DNA from: a virus
Virus record (IMG/VR): IMGVR_UViG_3300048928_000218
Span: 1-39,608 of that record
Direction: 5' to 3' (one strand)
Length of the DNA stretch: 39,608 bases
Part shown: in pieces, positions 6,169 through 22,521 of the stretch
How positions within the stretch are numbered: the stretch's first letter is position 1
How the letters are laid out: the number at the start of each line of letters is the position of its first letter
Position numbers and translations under genes: made by a program
Notes under the pieces: generated by a model
Database searches by the model: none
The model's input: only the letters and a program-made list of their open reading frames with translations
What the model was told of the DNA's origin: nothing

Positions 6169-8097
6169 TTAGGGGTGGGGCACGCCGAATTGGCGCGGGT
6201 GGGTAGGGTCGGTGTTCTCGCAGATGCCGGACTTGCTCTTGCGGCATCCGTAGCCGTGGCCCCATGAGGCGCCGTAGACGTCGGGGTCGGCGACGATGGG
6301 GAGCCGGTAGAAGGTGGATTCCATGAGGCGGCCGATTTCGGCGATGGCCTCGGGGGCGTCGGCGGCGTCGGCCTGGGCGACGAGCTCGTCGTGGACAGGG
6401 AGGAGGAGCAAGTCCCCGAGCCCGGCCTCGAAGATGTCGACGATGGCTTGCGCGAGGAGGTCGCGGGCCGTGGATTGAACCATGTAGTTCGTCGCGGCGT
6501 AGAGGCGGTCGGCATCGAGGGGGAGGCGGCGCTTGGAGAGCGTCGTCACAGCGCGGTCGCCGTAGCGGGCTTTCCGCACGAGCCCGGCCCCGTAGCGCTT
6601 GATGCCGGGGAAGGTCTTGTCGTAGGCGCCCATGGCGGGGCGGACGTCGTTGACGGGCACCCCGGTTTGCTTGGAGACCGTGTCGGCCCCGCCGCCGTAG
6701 ACCTTGCCGAACCCGATGGCCTTGGAGACCGATCGGTCTCGCTTGGTGAAGTCCTCGCCGAACACACGCCGGGCGGTGAAGTCATGGAGGTCGACGCCGG
6801 AGAGGATCGCCTCGACGAGGGTGGGGTCTTGGCAGAGCCCCGCGAGCACTCGCATTTCGACTTGGGAGTAGTCGGCGGCGATGATGAGCTTGCCGGGGTC
6901 GGCGATGAGGGCTCGTCGGATCGTCCAGTCGCCGGAGGGGAGTTGCTGGAGCGGGGGCCGGGAGATACTCATGCGGGCCGTGCGGGCCTGTAGTCCGCCG
7001 ATTTGCGGGTGGACCCGGTCGCCGTCGTCGCGGAGCTTGAGGAAGGCGTCGACGTAGCTCTCGCGCCACTTTCCGGCGCGCTTGGCGCGGAGGACGGCGT
7101 CGGCGACGGGGTTGGGCTCGCGGGCGCCGAGGCGCTCCCAGTCGCGGTCGAGGTCGGCGAGGGGGAGGAGTACCTCTTTGGCCGTGGAGAGCGCGCCGGA
7201 GTCGGTGGTCTCGGTGAGGGTCTCGCCCATGGCGAGGAGCACCTCGCGGACTTGGTCGGTGGAGTTGACGTTGTCGACGCCCCCGCGACGGGCCACGAGC
7301 TCAAAGCGGGCGGCCTCCTCGGCGAGCACGTCGGCGAGGCCCTCGGTGTATTCGACATCGAGGCGGACCCCGCGGCGCTCCATGGCGCACAGGAGCGCTT
7401 GGAGGTGGTGCTCGAAGGTGGAGAGGTCGGAGAGTCCGCGCTGGCGGATGAGGGGGACGAGCTCGGTGAACAGGCGATGCTCTAGCAGCACGTCCAGGCC
7501 CGCGTATCGGACGTAGAGCTCGTGGTCGATGGGGATGAACCGCCATCCGTCTCCGGCGTCCTTGGAGCACATGAGGCCGGTCTCGGGGTTACGGATCGTG
7601 CGGAAGACGGCGTTAAGGCCCTCTTGCGTGTCGGGGGCGGACGCGTCGACGTAGAGCGCGGCGAGCTCTTTGAGCTTGAGCCCCTGCCCGCCCTCGTGCG
7701 GTTGGCGCGGGTCGAGGAGGTGGGCGAAGATGCGGGTATCGAACACGCGCCGTGATAGCTCCTCGATGCTCACGCCGATGTGATGGTCGATGACCTTGAG
7801 GTCGAATGCGGCGTTATGCACGGCGAAGAATCGCGGCATGCGGAGCGCGCGGCGGATCGCGTCGAGGAAGAGGTCGACGCGGATGACCCACGCCTCGCGT
7901 GCGTTGCCGAATTGCACGAGGCGGCATCCGGTCCCGCGCGCGTAAGAGTAGGTGTCGAGGCCGAGGGTTTCGGTGTCGAGGCCGATGACAGCGTCGCCCT
8001 GAGCGAGGAAAGCCCAGAACCCGTCGAGTGAGTCGAAGAGCTCGGGCATGTAGATGTTGCACTCGTCGCCCGCGAGGGTGTGCGTGATGTGAAGCAT
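6169..8097 (-). CDS. DNA polymerase I, family A, with 3'-5' exonuclease, 642 aa
   Basis: The N-terminal domain has exonuclease motifs DTETLGLDT (D41, E43), HNAAFD (D99) and YAGLD (Y198, D202), so proofreading is probably active. The polymerase domain shows motif A AADYSQVEMR (D409), motif B RSVSKAIGFGKVYGGG (R455, K459, F463, Y467) and motif C VHDEL (H569-E571). There is no 5'-3' exonuclease domain, as usual for phage enzymes. The start at 8097 follows GAGAGGACCGCGC. It is the replicative polymerase of the phage and works with the primase-helicase upstream. Confidence 0.97.
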   Translation of the reverse strand: MLHITHTLAGDECNIYMPELFDSLDGFWAFLAQGDAVIGLDTETLGLDTYSYARGTGCRLVQFGNAREAWVIRVDLFLDAIRRALRMPRFFAVHNAAFDLKVIDHHIGVSIEELSRRVFDTRIFAHLLDPRQPHEGGQGLKLKELAALYVDASAPDTQEGLNAVFRTIRNPETGLMCSKDAGDGWRFIPIDHELYVRYAGLDVLLEHRLFTELVPLIRQRGLSDLSTFEHHLQALLCAMERRGVRLDVEYTEGLADVLAEEAARFELVARRGGVDNVNSTDQVREVLLAMGETLTETTDSGALSTAKEVLLPLADLDRDWERLGAREPNPVADAVLRAKRAGKWRESYVDAFLKLRDDGDRVHPQIGGLQARTARMSISRPPLQQLPSGDWTIRRALIADPGKLIIAADYSQVEMRVLAGLCQDPTLVEAILSGVDLHDFTARRVFGEDFTKRDRSVSKAIGFGKVYGGGADTVSKQTGVPVNDVRPAMGAYDKTFPGIKRYGAGLVRKARYGDRAVTTLSKRRLPLDADRLYAATNYMVQSTARDLLAQAIVDIFEAGLGDLLLLPVHDELVAQADAADAPEAIAEIGRLMESTFYRLPIVADPDVYGASWGHGYGCRKSKSGICENTDPTHPRQFGVPHP

Positions 8098-8392: not shown

Positions 8393-8869
8393 TCAGGCGA
8401 CGCGCGAGAGCGCCGACAGGCGGGCGAGGCCCGGGAACGGGATGCCGTCGTCGGCGGATCGGAGCACGGCGAGGGCGACGAGCTCCTCGGTGGTGGTGTC
8501 GTCGAGGCCGATGTCGGTGAGGAGCTCGGCGATGACGGTGGGCCGGATGACCTTGGCCGCGAGGGTGACCGGGCGGGCCGTCCGGTTCTCGTCGAAGGTC
8601 TGCCCGATGATCGGCTCGCCCGCGGCCTCCCCGGTCGGGGCGGTCGTGCGCTCTCGGATGACGTCCTCGACATCGACGAGGATGCCGCCGTTGATGTACA
8701 TGAGCTCGTTGTCGAAGCGGACGAGGCGGTCGCCGTCGCGGTCGACGAAGTCCTCGTCGGTCGTGACGACGTCTCCGATGCCCGGGCGAGTAACGCCCAC
8801 GTAGTCGATGCGACGGATGGCGCCGCTGGAGTAGTAGGGCTCGTCGACGAGGATGTAGCGCTTGGTCAT
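8393..8869 (-). CDS. Hypothetical protein, 158 aa
   Basis: Start at 8869 follows CGAAAGGCCCACC. The N-terminal half is acidic and beta-rich (RYILVDEPYYSSGAIRRID...GDVVTTDEDFVD); the C-terminal half is helical (IAELLTDIGLDDTTTEELVALAVL). Copy 1 of the repeated 32-bp element lies about 75 bp upstream, inside the end of the primase gene, so it may have its own promoter. No family recognised. Confidence 0.75.
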   Translation of the reverse strand: MTKRYILVDEPYYSSGAIRRIDYVGVTRPGIGDVVTTDEDFVDRDGDRLVRFDNELMYINGGILVDVEDVIRERTTAPTGEAAGEPIIGQTFDENRTARPVTLAAKVIRPTVIAELLTDIGLDDTTTEELVALAVLRSADDGIPFPGLARLSALSRVA

Positions 8870-8882
8870 GGTGGGCCTTTCG

Positions 8883-11579
8883 TTAGAAGGGGAGGTCGTC
8901 GAGGCTTGCGCCGCCGAGCGTGAGGGTGGGGGTGGTGTCGTGAGGAGATACCGCCTCGGGGGCGGGGATTGCCCGCGCGAGTTTCGGTGCGTCCTCGTCC
9001 GGCTTGTCCTCGGGGGCGTCGGCGGGGTTGCCGTGCCAGGTGAGGACGACGCGGCGCGCGCCGTTGCTCTTGACGCGTTCGACTTGGAGGCCGAGCGCGC
9101 CGCATGCCTCGGTGTGTTTGAGCACCTCGGCCGATAGCTGGGCGGGGCCGGAGGGCCACCATTCGGAGGGGTCGCCGGGCCGGTCGTCCGCGAGGGCGTC
9201 GCGGAGCTCGGTGGCGGTGCCCTCCCAGCGGTAGCCGTGGCCCTTGCGGGTGGAGGCGAGCTTGACGAGAGCGGCGACGAGGGGCTCGTCGCTGGCCCGT
9301 GAGGCGATGGCCTCGCGGACGCTGGCGGCGTAGGCGCCCGCGTAGCTTGCCGGGCTCCTCGGGTCAAGGCCGATGTGGAGGTCGAGCGCGATGAGGTGCT
9401 CGGCGTAGTCGGCCATGCGGGGGAGGGCGATGCCTTGGCGGCTTGCGTCGTAGAGGTTCGCGAGCACGCCGACGAGGTCGTCGAGGAGTGCGCCCAGGAT
9501 GACCGGGTGCGCGTCGAGGAACTCGCGCCAGACGGAGCCCTCGGTTTGGCGGCGTTCCATGGGGACGCGTTCAAACTCAACGACGACGAGGCGCTCCAGC
9601 GCGTCGGGGCGGAGCCCGAGGGGCATGGCGATGGAGGTGGCGACTCCGGTGCGGCGGATGCGTTGGATATACATGTCGCCGTCGGTGTAGAGCCGTCGGC
9701 GTGCCGTGGCGGCCCCGGTGACGAGGGTGCAAAACCAGTCCGACGTGGCCGTGTGGACGCTCGAAATGTTGTCCCACGAGGGCACGAATTGACCGGCCGC
9801 GGAGGTCGTATCGTCGCGTTCGTCGCCGGTCGGAGCGGCCCCGAGCGCCCCCTCTCGGCCGGTTGGGCCGAGGGCGGGGTCGAGGACCGACTTGACCATC
9901 CGGGCTCGGGTGGACTTGCCGGAGCCCTGGGGGCCGGAGACCCACAGGACCGGGCGAGACGTCGCCTCGAACAGGGCGCCGACGAGCCACCCGTAGACGA
10001 GCCTCCATGTGGGGTCGTCGGCGGTGAAGCCGAGCACCTCGCGGAGCACGTCGCGCGATCCCCCGCGGACGGGGACGGGGAGCGGTTCGGTGGCACGGGT
10101 GCGGCGGAACGCTGGGGCGTCCTGGGAGCGTGCGGGGAGCACCTCCCACCCGTCGGCCGAGACGTAGACGATTTGCCCGTCGTCGCGGCCGAGGTCGACG
10201 TAGATGCCATCCCGCGCCTCGTAGGAGCGCAGCGGTGCCGGTCGCACGGGGGCGGAGTTGGCGATGGCCGTGAGGGTCGTTTTGGCGGAGCTCATTTCGG
10301 TCGGCTTGAGTGACTCTTTGGCCTCGTCCCACACCATGCGGGCGATAGTGGCGGGGAGGTCGGAGACCTCCTCGGCGATGCCCGCGCCGTGCTCGTCGCG
10401 CTCGATGGTGACGATGGCGCCCTCGGGGGTGCGGGCGAACTCGTACCGGGCGAGGATTGCCGCGACGATGGACGCCGGGGAGAGGTCGTTGAGGGGACGC
10501 ACCCCGGGGGAGTCGTCCGGCTTGGGCTTGGGGGCCTTGGGTGTCCGCGGGGACGCCTTGCGAGCCTTGGGGGCCTCCTCGGGTGCCTCGGGCGCGGTGG
10601 GCGGGGCGGGGCGGGGCATGGTGGGCTGGCGGAGCTCGGCGGCGGCGATGGCGCGGCCGACGCTGGCGGACATGGCGGGTCCGCGCTGGGCGCGCCAGTC
10701 GGTGAGGTCGAGGCCGTCGGCGAGGTGGAGCTCCCGGACGGCGACGCCCTCGGAGAGGAGGCCGTCGGCGAGGCGGGTGGCGAAGCGGCGGCCCGCCTCG
10801 TCCCCGTCGCCCGCGATGACGGCGACGCGGTCTCCGACCCACGATGCGACCTCGGCGATGATGGCGGGGTTTTCCGCGTGAGAGGCTCCCGCGATGCCGA
10901 CGGTGTCGTAGCCGAGGGCGGCTCCGGTGAGCGCGTCTCCGGGGCCCTCGCAGATGAGCACCTCGGAGCGGAGGCCGTTGCCGGGGAAATAGCCGGTCTT
11001 GGCCCACGAGCCACCCTCGGGGGACTTGGGGCCGAGCCACCGGACGGCGCCATCGGGGAGCTCGGCGGCGAGGGCTCGGCCTTGGAAGTTTCGCGCGACG
11101 CCGTCGGGGTCGCGGAATGGGACGACGAGGCGAGGGATGCCGGAGTCCTTGGGGGAGCGGATGTCGTCGGCGTAGCCCAGGCCGAGGCGGGCGAAGTCGT
11201 CCGCGGTGAGCCCGAATCGGGTTTTGGCGTAGGCGCGGGCGCCGTCGGCGGCGGGGGCGGTCGCGCCCTCGGCGTAGCCGTTGACGCGCATGGCGAGGCG
11301 GGCGATGTCGGCCGGGGTGGCGGGGAGGGCCGAGGTGGCGCGCCGGGTGGTGGGAACGTCGCCGGGCTGCATGCGGACGAGCTCACGCATGCTCATGCCG
11401 AGGGCCTTGACGATGGCGACGGTGGAGCACCCGGCGCGACACTTGAGGAGTACCTTGCCCGCGTCCGATACCGCGATACGGAGTGATGCGCGCGAGTCGG
11501 CGTGCGAGGGGCACGGCGCGAGCCAGCCGTCGCGCTCGTCGACGGCGTCGAGGCGCGAGAGGAGGTCGGGGAGTTTCAT
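8883..11579 (-). CDS. Primase-helicase fusion with SSB-like C-terminal tip, 898 aa
   Basis: The N-terminus has a zinc-finger-like Cys/His set (C23, H26, C47, C51). A TOPRIM-like domain follows: EGPGDAL (E211) and AGDGDEAG (257-263). After a Pro/Lys-rich linker (about 320-365) comes a P-loop ATPase with GPQGSGKST (549-557), consistent with a replicative helicase. The last six residues are LDDLPF after a disordered Asp/Pro-rich tail, which resembles the tip by which bacterial SSB recruits partners. Copy 2 of the 32-bp element lies 34 bp upstream of the ATG. It makes primers and unwinds DNA for the phage polymerase. Confidence 0.9.
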   Translation of the reverse strand: MKLPDLLSRLDAVDERDGWLAPCPSHADSRASLRIAVSDAGKVLLKCRAGCSTVAIVKALGMSMRELVRMQPGDVPTTRRATSALPATPADIARLAMRVNGYAEGATAPAADGARAYAKTRFGLTADDFARLGLGYADDIRSPKDSGIPRLVVPFRDPDGVARNFQGRALAAELPDGAVRWLGPKSPEGGSWAKTGYFPGNGLRSEVLICEGPGDALTGAALGYDTVGIAGASHAENPAIIAEVASWVGDRVAVIAGDGDEAGRRFATRLADGLLSEGVAVRELHLADGLDLTDWRAQRGPAMSASVGRAIAAAELRQPTMPRPAPPTAPEAPEEAPKARKASPRTPKAPKPKPDDSPGVRPLNDLSPASIVAAILARYEFARTPEGAIVTIERDEHGAGIAEEVSDLPATIARMVWDEAKESLKPTEMSSAKTTLTAIANSAPVRPAPLRSYEARDGIYVDLGRDDGQIVYVSADGWEVLPARSQDAPAFRRTRATEPLPVPVRGGSRDVLREVLGFTADDPTWRLVYGWLVGALFEATSRPVLWVSGPQGSGKSTRARMVKSVLDPALGPTGREGALGAAPTGDERDDTTSAAGQFVPSWDNISSVHTATSDWFCTLVTGAATARRRLYTDGDMYIQRIRRTGVATSIAMPLGLRPDALERLVVVEFERVPMERRQTEGSVWREFLDAHPVILGALLDDLVGVLANLYDASRQGIALPRMADYAEHLIALDLHIGLDPRSPASYAGAYAASVREAIASRASDEPLVAALVKLASTRKGHGYRWEGTATELRDALADDRPGDPSEWWPSGPAQLSAEVLKHTEACGALGLQVERVKSNGARRVVLTWHGNPADAPEDKPDEDAPKLARAIPAPEAVSPHDTTPTLTLGGASLDDLPF
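8944..8975 (-). promoter_or_regulatory. 32-bp promoter-like element, copy 1
   Basis: Minus strand reads CGGGCA-N14-GGCGGTATCTCC. It lies within the last codons of the primase gene, about 75 bp before the 158-aa gene. It shares 24 bp of identity with copy 2, and is the only copy wholly inside a gene. Confidence 0.6.
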
Positions 11580-11644: not shown

Positions 11645-11841
11645 GTTGGGGCGGGGATGGTCGGCTCGTCGATAACGGCCCAGGTGCCGACAAGAGCTCC
11701 GGCGCGCATGGGGTGGGGGCGTTCGGTGCGGATGACACCGTCGGAGCCGACGTCGAGGTAGCGCACGGCCGCGGTCAGGCCCTCGGACAGGACGACCCCC
11801 GCAGGGAGCTCCAGGGTGAGGCGGACGACACGGCCGATCAT
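11635..11841 (-). CDS. Small hypothetical protein, 68 aa
   Basis: ATG at 11841 overlaps the stop of the NrdH-like gene (ATGA). Predicted all-beta with MIGRVVRLTLELPAGVVLSE and LVGTWAVIDEP. No family recognised; the overlap and codon use support a real gene. Confidence 0.65.
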   Translation of the reverse strand: MIGRVVRLTLELPAGVVLSEGLTAAVRYLDVGSDGVIRTERPHPMRAGALVGTWAVIDEPTIPAPTGH

Positions 11842-12128
11842 TCGACGGCCTTGAGGTGCTCGTCGACGAGGTCGGGGCGGAAGCCGGACCAGGCATCGCG
11901 CTCGGAGCCGTCGGCGTTGAGGAGGACGACGACGGGAGCTCCGACAAAGCCTCGAGTCTTGAACGCGGTGAGGAGCTCGGCATGCTCGGGCGCGTCGAGC
12001 GGCTCGCCGTCGTCGTACCGGGCGCCGAGCTCGTTGAGGCGGCGCTTGGTGGCGTCGCACTGGACGCACCGGCCGAGCTTGCTGTAGACGATGATGCGGG
12101 CGATGCCCGTCCGGGTGAGGGGGTCCAT
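11838..12128 (-). CDS. NrdH-like glutaredoxin/thioredoxin-fold protein, 96 aa
   Basis: A redox site CVQC sits at residues 21-24 after a beta strand (ARIIVYSKLGR), followed by a helix (DATKRRLNELG). A later GFVGAPVVVL matches the cis-Pro strand, and WSGFRPDLVDEHL the last helix, as in NrdH. NrdH proteins pass electrons to ribonucleotide reductase. No reductase is seen here, so it may serve the host enzyme during infection. Start at 12128 follows CGAAAGCCCTACCT. Confidence 0.85.
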   Translation of the reverse strand: MDPLTRTGIARIIVYSKLGRCVQCDATKRRLNELGARYDDGEPLDAPEHAELLTAFKTRGFVGAPVVVLLNADGSERDAWSGFRPDLVDEHLKAVE

Positions 12129-12140
12129 AGGTAGGGCTTT

Positions 12141-12148
12141 CGTGTAAA
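12141..12148. repeat. GTGTAAAC dispersed motif, copy 4
   Basis: Plus-strand GTGTAAACG about 13 bp upstream of the NrdH-like start, next to its ribosome site. Confidence 0.5.
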
Positions 12149-12167
12149 CGGGGTGTGGACGTGGAGC

Positions 12168-12200
12168 GGCCCCCGCCCGGGCGGATGCCGAGCGGGGGCC
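12168..12200. terminator. Hairpin terminator upstream of the NrdH-like gene
   Basis: Stem GGCCCCCGC / GCGGGGGCC between the end of the membrane gene (12205) and the NrdH-like start. No T run follows on the minus strand. Confidence 0.5.
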
Positions 12201-12204
12201 GGGG

Positions 12205-12474
12205 TTACTTGCGACGGAGGCGGAGGAGGTGGAGGAAGGCCCCCCAGGCGAGGAACCCGCCGACACTTGCCGCGACGAGCGGCCAGCCGGTCAGGCCCAG
12301 CGCGGGGAACCAGAGGAGCGCCGCGAGGGTCGGCGGGAGGACGGCGAACCCGAGTGCGATGACGACGAGGAGCACGAACCCGAGGACGACCGCGACGGCG
12401 GCGCCGGTCGATACCTCGCGCGAGCGGGACATCCGGGTCTTGAATCGGTTGGCGGCGGCGTATGCGATGCTCAC
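12205..12474 (-). CDS. Two-span membrane protein, 89 aa
   Basis: GTG start at 12474 overlaps the stop of the RDF-like gene (GTGA). Hydrophobic segments at about 22-46 (TGAAVAVVLGFVLLVVIALGF) and 55-80 (FPALGLTGWPLVAASVGGFL) give two membrane spans, ending in a basic tail (HLLRLRRK). No family recognised. It resembles the 42-aa membrane protein at 2200-2328 in its last third. Confidence 0.65.
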   Translation of the reverse strand: MSIAYAAANRFKTRMSRSREVSTGAAVAVVLGFVLLVVIALGFAVLPPTLAALLWFPALGLTGWPLVAASVGGFLAWGAFLHLLRLRRK

Positions 12475-13175
12475 TTGTCGCCCTCACCCGTGAGCTCGAT
12501 GCGGGTAGCGGTGTACTCGACGCGCTGGCCCTTGGTCTCGCCCGTGCGGGAGGTGAAGGCGACGGGCTTGAGCTTGAGGGTGGCCGTGGTCTGGCCGCCG
12601 ATTTCGGCGAGGCGCTCGGAGGTGCGGTTGAGGGCGAGGTCGTAGGCGACCGAGAATGACGTGGTCTTGAACAGGAAGAGCCCGAGCTCGGGAGCGTCCG
12701 CGAGGCGGAAGTAGAAGTCGATGTCGGGTGCCGGGCCGTCTCCCGCCTCGGCCTTGGCCTTGCGCTCCTTGAACGTGAGCGCGGCGTCGGGGTCTCGCTC
12801 GTCGGTCGGCTTGTTGTGCTCGTCGAGGATGAACTCGCCGTCGGAGGCGTAGACGAGCTCTCCCTCTCGGAAGTAGACCATGCGCTGGCGGAGGCCCCAG
12901 GGGCCCTCGATGATGACGTCGACGTCGGCGACGTCGGTGAATACCTCGATGTTGTCGTCGCCCTTGGCCTCCTCGTCGACGGCGGGCACCGATCCGCTGA
13001 GGAGGTCGGCGACGGCGTTGGCGACGTCGGTGTCGGCGGTGGTCACGCGCCAGGTGGTGAGGGGTGCGGGCTCGCCGTCGACGGTGTAGCCGGAGCGGAA
13101 GCGTCCGACGACGTCGTCGAATGACGCACGGGGCTTGGGGAGGTTGGCGGGGTCGTCGCCGAAGATTTTGAGCAT
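12471..13175 (-). CDS. phiC31 Gp3-like recombination directionality factor-type protein, 234 aa
   Basis: The opening LKIFGDDPANLPKPRASFDDVVGRFRSGY and WRVTTADTDVANAVADLL match the Gp3-like RDF family of actinophages. In phiC31 the family member binds serine integrase and turns integration into excision. No serine or tyrosine integrase is visible in this window, so the protein either has another role or acts on an enzyme encoded elsewhere. Start at 13175 is preceded by GAGAGACTCCGC. Copy 3 of the 32-bp element lies about 50 bp upstream. Confidence 0.8.
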   Translation of the reverse strand: MLKIFGDDPANLPKPRASFDDVVGRFRSGYTVDGEPAPLTTWRVTTADTDVANAVADLLSGSVPAVDEEAKGDDNIEVFTDVADVDVIIEGPWGLRQRMVYFREGELVYASDGEFILDEHNKPTDERDPDAALTFKERKAKAEAGDGPAPDIDFYFRLADAPELGLFLFKTTSFSVAYDLALNRTSERLAEIGGQTTATLKLKPVAFTSRTGETKGQRVEYTATRIELTGEGDK

Positions 13176-20973: not shown

Positions 20974-21009
20974 AGGGCTCCTCTCGTGTCAGGGGTGCGG
21001 GAGACGCGA

Positions 21010-21041
21010 GGAGATACCGCCTGGGCGTGGCGGTCTGCCCA
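21010..21041 (-). promoter_or_regulatory. 32-bp promoter-like element, copy 7
   Basis: Minus strand reads TGGGCA-N14-GGCGGTATCTCC with the longest paired arms (CCTGGGC / GCCCAGG). It sits 10 bp past a strong terminator and marks the boundary between the lysis genes and the non-structural genes. Confidence 0.75.
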
Positions 21042-21050
21042 GGAACGCGA

Positions 21051-21088
21051 AAAAGCCCCCGCTCCGTGTGCAGGAGCGGGGGGCTTTT
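21051..21088. terminator. Strong hairpin terminator after the endolysin
   Basis: Stem AAAAGCCCCCGCTCC / GGAGCGGGGGGCTTTT (one extra G), with T runs on both strands. It ends the late operon. Confidence 0.85.
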
Positions 21089-21100
21089 GGGGTGCGATGG

Positions 21101-21811
21101 TCAGAGAGCCTTGTAGTTCTCCGCCTCGGCGTAGGCGAGGGCCGCGCGCATGACCGGGCCGGGCACGTCGTTGCCGACGTAGCCCCACCGGGCACGGAGC
21201 CACCGCGCGATCGCGGCCCACATGACCGGGCCGAGCTCGTTGTTGCCGACGTAGCCGTAGTTACGCCGGAGGAACTCGGCGAATCCGGCCATGGAGCCGT
21301 CGCCGAACTTTTGGTCGGGGCCGCCGCGGTAGCCGTAGAGCGCCGCGATTTTCTGGAGGCCCGCGGTCCACGCGATGCCGAAGGGGTTAAAGCCCCCGCC
21401 CTGGGCGGGGACGCTACCGGCGTTCCAGTCGACACCGGACGCGGCAGGGGCCGGGGCCGGGGCCGACGGGCGCCCGCGGAACTCGTAGTGGACCGGGTCG
21501 CTATTGCCGTACCAGGCGAACCCGAACTCTTCCAGCTTGGCCCGGTCGGATGTGTAGTTGTAGACGTCGACCGCGATACCGCCGTCCTTGACATGGTTGG
21601 AGCGGGTAGCCGGACGCGCGGGCTCGTAGAGGTAGGGCGGTCGGTTGGAGGCGCCGCCGCGGTCCCATCGGGCGATGAGCTCGTTTTGCTCGCCCTCGGT
21701 GCGGCCCGCGGAGTTGATGCGGATAACGCCGTACTTGTCTTCGAGCGCGTTGATTGCGGCGGCGGCGTCGTCGCGGAGCCACAGGCCGGGGTGGTTCTTG
21801 AGGTTTGCCAT
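21101..21811 (-). CDS. M15-type peptidase endolysin with repeated C-terminal motif, 236 aa
   Basis: The catalytic domain (about 1-112) has SAGRTEGEQNEL and the zinc-site pattern SNHVKDGGIAVDVYN (H73, D82) with DPVHYEF (H109), as in VanY/M15 L,D- or D,D-peptidases. A Pro/Ala linker follows, then two copies of a ~24-residue motif, YGYVGNNELGPVMWAAIARW (185-204) and WGYVGNDVPGPVMRAALAYA (209-228), probably a cell-wall-binding module. It cuts peptidoglycan cross-links at lysis; the holins are just upstream. Start at 21811 follows CGAAAGGCACCCCC. Confidence 0.9.
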   Translation of the reverse strand: MANLKNHPGLWLRDDAAAAINALEDKYGVIRINSAGRTEGEQNELIARWDRGGASNRPPYLYEPARPATRSNHVKDGGIAVDVYNYTSDRAKLEEFGFAWYGNSDPVHYEFRGRPSAPAPAPAASGVDWNAGSVPAQGGGFNPFGIAWTAGLQKIAALYGYRGGPDQKFGDGSMAGFAEFLRRNYGYVGNNELGPVMWAAIARWLRARWGYVGNDVPGPVMRAALAYAEAENYKAL

Positions 21812-21835
21812 GGGGGTGCCTTTCGTGGGATGGAG

Positions 21836-21868
21836 AAGGGCCCGTCTCCGGGGTGGAGGCGGGCCCTT
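21836..21868. terminator. Hairpin terminator between holin and endolysin
   Basis: Stem AAGGGCCCG / CGGGCCCTT with an additional inner CTCC/GGAG pairing. It may only attenuate, because the endolysin has no separate promoter that I can see. Confidence 0.55.
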
Positions 21869-21887
21869 GGGGAGTGGGTGGGGCGGT

Positions 21888-21895
21888 GTTTACAC
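21888..21895. repeat. GTGTAAAC dispersed motif, copy 7
   Basis: Plus strand GTTTACAC; on the minus strand it supplies the holin stop codon (GTG-TAA). Confidence 0.4.
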
Positions 21896-22177
21896 GCCCG
21901 GGACGAGGGAGGCGGAGCCGGTGCCGACCTTGGTGGCCGTGATGGCCTTGAGGAGCGAGGTGAGCGCGGCGGTGCCCGCGCCGATGGCGATGGCTTGCCA
22001 GGTGTCGCCCGCGATGAGGTTGAACCCGTCGAGGGTGACGACGGCGAGGGCGCCGCCCGCGGCCGAGGACGCGACGCGCTCGAAGGTGTCGAGCCAGAAG
22101 GTGCCGGACAGGAGCGGCCGGTTGGTGGTGTGCGCCTCGGCGGCCTCGCGGATGCTTGCTCGTGTGGGGAGTGCCAT
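21890..22177 (-). CDS. Holin, r1t-like, 95 aa
   Basis: FWLDTFERVASSAAGGALAVVTL and WQAIAIGAGTAALTSLLKAI form two hydrophobic stretches in the layout of r1t-type holins, with a polar N-terminus and a C-terminal GTGSASLVPGV like the GxxSL tail common in that group. It forms holes in the membrane to release the endolysin. Start at 22177 follows CGAAAGGTCACCC. Confidence 0.8.
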   Translation of the reverse strand: MALPTRASIREAAEAHTTNRPLLSGTFWLDTFERVASSAAGGALAVVTLDGFNLIAGDTWQAIAIGAGTAALTSLLKAITATKVGTGSASLVPGV

Positions 22178-22192
22178 GGGTGACCTTTCGGG

Positions 22193-22423
22193 TTACTTAA
22201 GGAGGACGTTGGCGAGTTGACCGAGGGAGGCGCCGAGTACGGTGGCGGCGCCCGCGGCGACGAACACCTTGCGCTCCAGGCCTCGGATGCGGCTTTCGTG
22301 GTCCTCCCCTCGGGTGAGGGAGGTGTCGAGCTTGACCTCGATACGGGTGAGGAACGCCACGAGGGGCGCATCCTGGGAGGGAGGGATGGCGGAGCCCTCG
22401 GGGATGGTGCCAGCGGGGGGCAT
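22193..22423 (-). CDS. Second lysis-associated membrane protein (holin-like), 76 aa
   Basis: Start at 22423 follows CGAAAGGTCACCG. A helical region (PLVAFLTRIEVKLDTSLTRGEDHESRIRGLERK), probably coiled coil, precedes one C-terminal membrane span (VFVAAGAATVLGASLGQLANVLL). The layout of coiled coil plus tail anchor is common in phage second holins. Its place between tail and holin genes supports a lysis role. Confidence 0.7.
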   Translation of the reverse strand: MPPAGTIPEGSAIPPSQDAPLVAFLTRIEVKLDTSLTRGEDHESRIRGLERKVFVAAGAATVLGASLGQLANVLLK

Positions 22424-22442
22424 CGGTGACCTTTCGGGGACG

Positions 22443-22467
22443 CTCGGCTCGCGGAGTGCGAGCCGAG
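22443..22467. promoter_or_regulatory. Perfect inverted repeat between divergent starts
   Basis: CTCGGCTCGC-GGAGT-GCGAGCCGAG, 10-bp arms. It lies between the leftward holin-like gene (start 22423) and the rightward Cys-rich gene (start 22522). No T run; an operator or a terminator are both possible. Confidence 0.5.
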
Positions 22468-22521
22468 GAGGGGCCGGAGGGGTTAACCTCGGGGGAGCTA
22501 CGAATGAGCTAGGAGATTGCA

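Follow-up and report, generated by a model that had tools for sequence, protein, structure and literature searches.

The question raised by this locus is what role is played by the C-terminal end of a phage primase/ATPase protein that resembles the acidic tip of bacterial single-stranded DNA-binding proteins (SSBs). The protein is encoded in a virus record of 39,608 bases (~70% GC), the whole of which was analysed and is called the window here. An earlier note on this DNA had read the final residues, LDDLPF, as an SSB-like tip by which the phage helicase may recruit host partners of SSB or compete with host SSB. The ending is real and the idea of a recruiting tip is partly right, while mimicry of SSB would at best be a variant confined to this phage. 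The end of the tail is interpreted here as a conserved replisome-docking peptide, with the phage A-family DNA polymerase as the best guess for its partner, an interpretation by analogy to which a probability of about 0.55 is given. The most interesting lead of the analysis is another protein of the same region, related to phiC31 Gp3.

The primase/P-loop ATPase fusion protein (898 amino acids) is encoded on the minus strand at 8883–11579. It is a member of the PHROG 6088 primases (residues 1–318, E 8.5e-69) with Toprim_2 exceeding its cut-off and the Toprim region at residues 205–302 (10674–10967, minus strand), and it is 71% identical to gp37 of the Microbacterium phage Zeta1847. The primase half is present in 239 phage records, the hosts being nearly all Microbacterium, Arthrobacter, Streptomyces, and Curtobacterium. 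The ATPase half has a Walker A motif, GPQGSGKST, read from the sequence at residues 549–557 (9909–9935, minus strand). The name primase-helicase given in the earlier note is thus clear for the primase half, whereas the second half is a P-loop module without a recognised helicase family, and is probably a helicase. The open reading frame terminates, as had been described, in PEAVSPHDTTPTLTLGGASLDDLPF followed by the stop codon, the last ten residues being GGASLDDLPF. A ribosome site resembling GAAAGG lies directly 3' of the stop, followed by the ATG at 8869 of the next gene (8393–8869, minus strand), a small gene without Pfam match between primase and polymerase; a short gene is likewise placed in several relatives. 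The frame is considered sound because the spacing between stop, ribosome site and next start is nearly that of Zeta1847, and the same spacing rules out a frameshift artefact at the end of the primase.

The ATPase half (9032–10517, minus strand; 21000–22470 in locus L001) occupies the place of D5_N/DUF5906 in relatives and is itself an unrecognised module. Pfam gave no family above cut-off for it, solved structures included no convincing relative, and its AlphaFold model from the single sequence reached a pLDDT of 40. The relative Honk has D5_N and DUF5906, neither of which was found in the window protein. In profile comparisons the primase halves of the window and the D5-type phages matched at 100%, whereas the window ATPase half and the D5_N/DUF5906 half of other phages gave a probability of 0.2%, i.e., they are unrelated. 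Among phage records, the window ATPase half is common only to Zeta1847; no further relatives came from IMG/VR, whether the query was the entire protein or its ATPase half, and a search of genome contigs gave 10 loci, matching across the primase half. The window and Zeta1847 proteins share their primase half and tail with those PHROG 6088 primase/helicases that have a D5_N/DUF5906 half, from phages of Microbacterium, Arthrobacter, and Streptomyces, but the P-loop half that lies between the two shared parts is unrelated. As judged from sequence comparison, the helicase domain has been exchanged internally in these two phages, with the primase half and the tail retained.

The tail consists of a variable linker rich in Pro, Ala, and Asp (8913–9032, minus strand), presumably disordered given its composition, and of the tip GASLDDLPF (8886–8912, minus strand), which combines a conserved, putative docking motif with a private Pro-Phe end. 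Information content is about 1.7–3.1 bits in the tip columns and 0.4–1.2 bits in most linker columns. The pattern Phi-x-G-[AP]-[DS]-[LI]-D-[DSA]-[ILV]-Phi, a regular expression composed post hoc from the tails already inspected, is present in 39 of 40 non-redundant homologues (shuffled tails: mean 0.54, maximum 3). An independent test used a profile made exclusively from tails of D5-type helicases, with 2000 shuffles per scored tail. The window tail scored 20.6 bits (best shuffle 11.6) and the Zeta1847 tail 21.4 bits (best shuffle 10.6), which indicates that the tail outlasted the replacement of the intervening helicase half. Phages from several actinobacterial families carry the motif, and it was found on no other phage protein among 2822 coding-like open reading frames (ORFs). 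The endings of relatives include GADLDSVL (Zeta1847), LDDVL, LDSII, LDDIF, and GGIW, and the Streptomyces phages TG1, phiBT1, AbbeyMikolon, and Shaeky retain a core GPGIF near the C-terminus. In four loci (L008, L034, L037, and L040) the protein runs 2–5 residues beyond the motif, and neither a free carboxylate nor a free C-terminal Phe is therefore the conserved feature. A beta-clamp motif was considered for the tip and rejected, there being no Gln and no QLxLF-like spacing when it was read against the consensus.

In form, LDDLPF is SSB-like as had been claimed, with acidic residues and then x-Pro-Phe at the free C-terminus, after a flexible linker, as in the tips of bacterial SSBs (MDFDDDIPF in E. 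coli; DDTPF in Microbacteriaceae). Three of the 546 open frames of at least 30 codons in the window terminate in PF or in a comparable acidic-aromatic sequence, DDxPF being found only in the primase ORF. In related loci, [DE][DE]?xP[FY] ends were seen in 6 of 1579 coding-like non-Gp3 ORFs, two of the six being genuine SSBs. By these counts the window ending is rare as well as SSB-like; a scan for it with a DNA pattern gave no match, a weak negative given that the pattern was narrow and GC-biased. An ancestral docking tip may be supposed to have become DDLPF in the window phage and to dock on host pockets of the RecO/PriA type, either recruiting SSB partners or competing with host SSB. The Pro and Phe agree with this, since these last two residues are the ones visible for E. 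coli SSB in the RecO pocket (PMC7913777). So do the rarity of such endings outside SSBs and Gp3-like proteins, the fact that the record contains no canonical SSB, and the resemblance to the host-type tips of Microbacteriaceae, with YGDDTPF for Microbacterium and YADDTPF for Herbiconiux. The earlier note had, however, made its proposal dependent on conservation of the tip, and none of the close relatives read has the terminal Pro-Phe; the nearest one, Zeta1847, ends in LDSVL. Pro-Phe occurs once in the primase family and otherwise only in the primase of a distant Salinibacter phage, ending in APF. The carrier in the window is, moreover, a primase/ATPase protein and not an OB-fold protein binding single-stranded DNA, a canonical SSB is missing from these phages in general and not just from the window, and relatives combine the primase motif with an SSB-type tip on the Gp3-like protein. 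Since Pro-Phe is not conserved and a free carboxylate is not needed, the tail motif of the family is not an SSB tip. Of the proposed recruitment of SSB partners, the recruiting part is reasonable for a C-terminal peptide that is conserved while its linker varies, but the Pro-Phe that would mimic SSB is, by comparison with the relatives, private to this phage, where it may fit SSB-tip pockets too. Mimicry of SSB is therefore regarded as unlikely. The primase of the Salinibacter phage M8CR30-2 (L073:4974–7244) terminates in NRDAPF, and this phage encodes an SSB of its own as well as a clamp.

If the tail end is a docking peptide, the variable linker would present G[AP][DS]LD[DSA][ILV] plus a hydrophobic residue, and each primase/helicase subunit would tether a constant partner in the replisome. 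The likeliest protein bound would be the phage's own A-family DNA polymerase, in the way that T7 gp4 tethers gp5 by its acidic tail. In T7, the gp4 helicase attaches through its acidic tails to basic patches of gp5, an A-family polymerase, and processivity falls to about 5 kb, as against 17 kb, once 17 residues are lost (PMC12593628). In the window, too, a phage protein with primase and ATPase parts ends in a conserved tail, and the phage encodes an A-family polymerase with a 3'-5' exonuclease domain (6169–8097, minus strand; DNA_pol_A E 3.7e-61, DNA_pol_A_exo1 E 9.6e-12), the proposed partner of the tip. The helicase is, however, of another type without sequence relation to gp4, the tie to the polymerase is made by analogy, and the window tip is only mildly acidic, with a patterned hydrophobic motif (G[AP][DS]LDDxPhi) on a Pro/Ala-rich linker. 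A homologue of the polymerase lies downstream of the primase in all 59 usable loci, but this co-occurrence is weak evidence for a contact since gene adjacency is inherited synteny, and the Gp3-like protein accompanies the primase just as consistently.

This leaves some room, though not much, for a genuine docking tip with a different partner, either the Gp3-like protein or a replication protein of the host that Actinobacteria have in common. Gp3-like protein and primase are found together in nearly all phage records and loci read, and the spread of the motif over phages of several actinobacterial families would suit a common host protein, but the T7 analogy points to the polymerase. A disordered end that finishes in DDLPF by chance or drift is very improbable. 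The linker is indeed variable and Pro-Phe occurs once in the family, but the final residues are strongly conserved over 40 diverse proteins and across the domain exchange, and chance is reasonable when confined to the last two residues of the tip.

Docking on the polymerase is thus the preferred reading of the primase tail, and the SSB question shifts to the Gp3-like protein. The earlier note had recognised no SSB gene in the window, and PF00436 was not found in the record, but the Gp3-like protein at 12471–13175 (minus strand), two genes upstream of the primase, was probably overlooked. It belongs to the family of the phiC31 recombination directionality factor (RDF) both by sequence (PF18897, 33.6 bits against a cut-off of 23.6) and by predicted fold. 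Its AlphaFold model has a pLDDT of 90.3, and the best match among solved structures is the phiC31 RDF, 9teh (VIA Z 23.4). The matches after 9teh are mostly OB-fold proteins, among them bacterial SSBs, gp32 of T4 and RB69, and BRCA2, all of them weak (Z 2.7–4.4, Foldseek E 0.03 or worse). T7 gp2.5 was absent among the matches listed, which is uninformative either way. For an SSB-like function, this evidence from the model is suggestive and not proof.

The C-termini of the family point in the same direction. SSB-type tips (DEPPF, DDVPF, DEAPF, DTPF, EDEPAF) end 20 of 72 non-redundant Gp3-like proteins as compared with 6 of 1579 other ORFs, these two counts resting on slightly different tip patterns; by the strict pattern, 12 of the 58 Gp3-like proteins in the same loci have them. 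The loci listed for this observation are L020, L029–L040, L051–L053, L070, L112–L118, and L126–L164. The window copy ends in IELTGEGDK and has no tip. Of the primase loci read, 58 encode a Gp3-like protein; among phage records 240 have one, and their host counts nearly match those of the primase. A canonical SSB (PF00436) was found neither in the window nor in 30 further primase-family records and 14 records of the Gp3 analysis (some of them overlapping), apart from a single one in the distant, clamp-bearing Salinibacter phage. The primase motif and an SSB-type tip on the Gp3-like protein coexist in several phages and hence look like separate signals.

The phiC31 gp3 protein (PF18897, PDB 9teh) is known as a directionality factor of the integrase, and the phiC31 RDF also functions in phage replication (PMC5311408). 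Neither SSB-type tips nor an SSB-like role or OB fold were found reported for Gp3 in the open-access literature searched, which is weak evidence. The Microbacterium phage Dismas (L167, complete genome) encodes a Gp3-like protein, gp31, annotated as hypothetical, with a Pro-Ala-Phe tip. The serine recombinase domain PF07508 was detected neither in Dismas nor in G022, G026, G027, and G024, four IMG/VR records whose Gp3-like proteins are tipped. To judge by domain content, this argues against a role in integrase directionality in Dismas. The Gp3-like family could be a hidden SSB of actinophages, a replication protein with a partner-recruiting tip in many lineages that phiC31-type integrases use as a directionality signal, a tentative proposal given somewhat less than even odds. 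It is a speculative extension that the tip has moved in the window lineage, where the Gp3-like protein is tipless and the equivalent DDLPF is on the primase-helicase.

A docking peptide that outlives exchange of the helicase would point to a contact that stays fixed within the minimal replisome of an actinophage, and would provide a handle for the search for partners. The SSB by-product may be bigger in consequence. If the phiC31 gp3 family are SSBs, this would account for the replication role of a serine-integrase directionality factor, for its retention in phages without a detected integrase, and for how these phages can do without encoding a canonical SSB.

A gene for an NrdH-like glutaredoxin is found near the primase in the window (11838–12266, minus strand), and many relatives have glutaredoxin or thioredoxin genes near the primase. 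The processivity factor of T7 polymerase is thioredoxin. A role of the window glutaredoxin together with the polymerase is conceivable, nucleotide metabolism being the likelier function.
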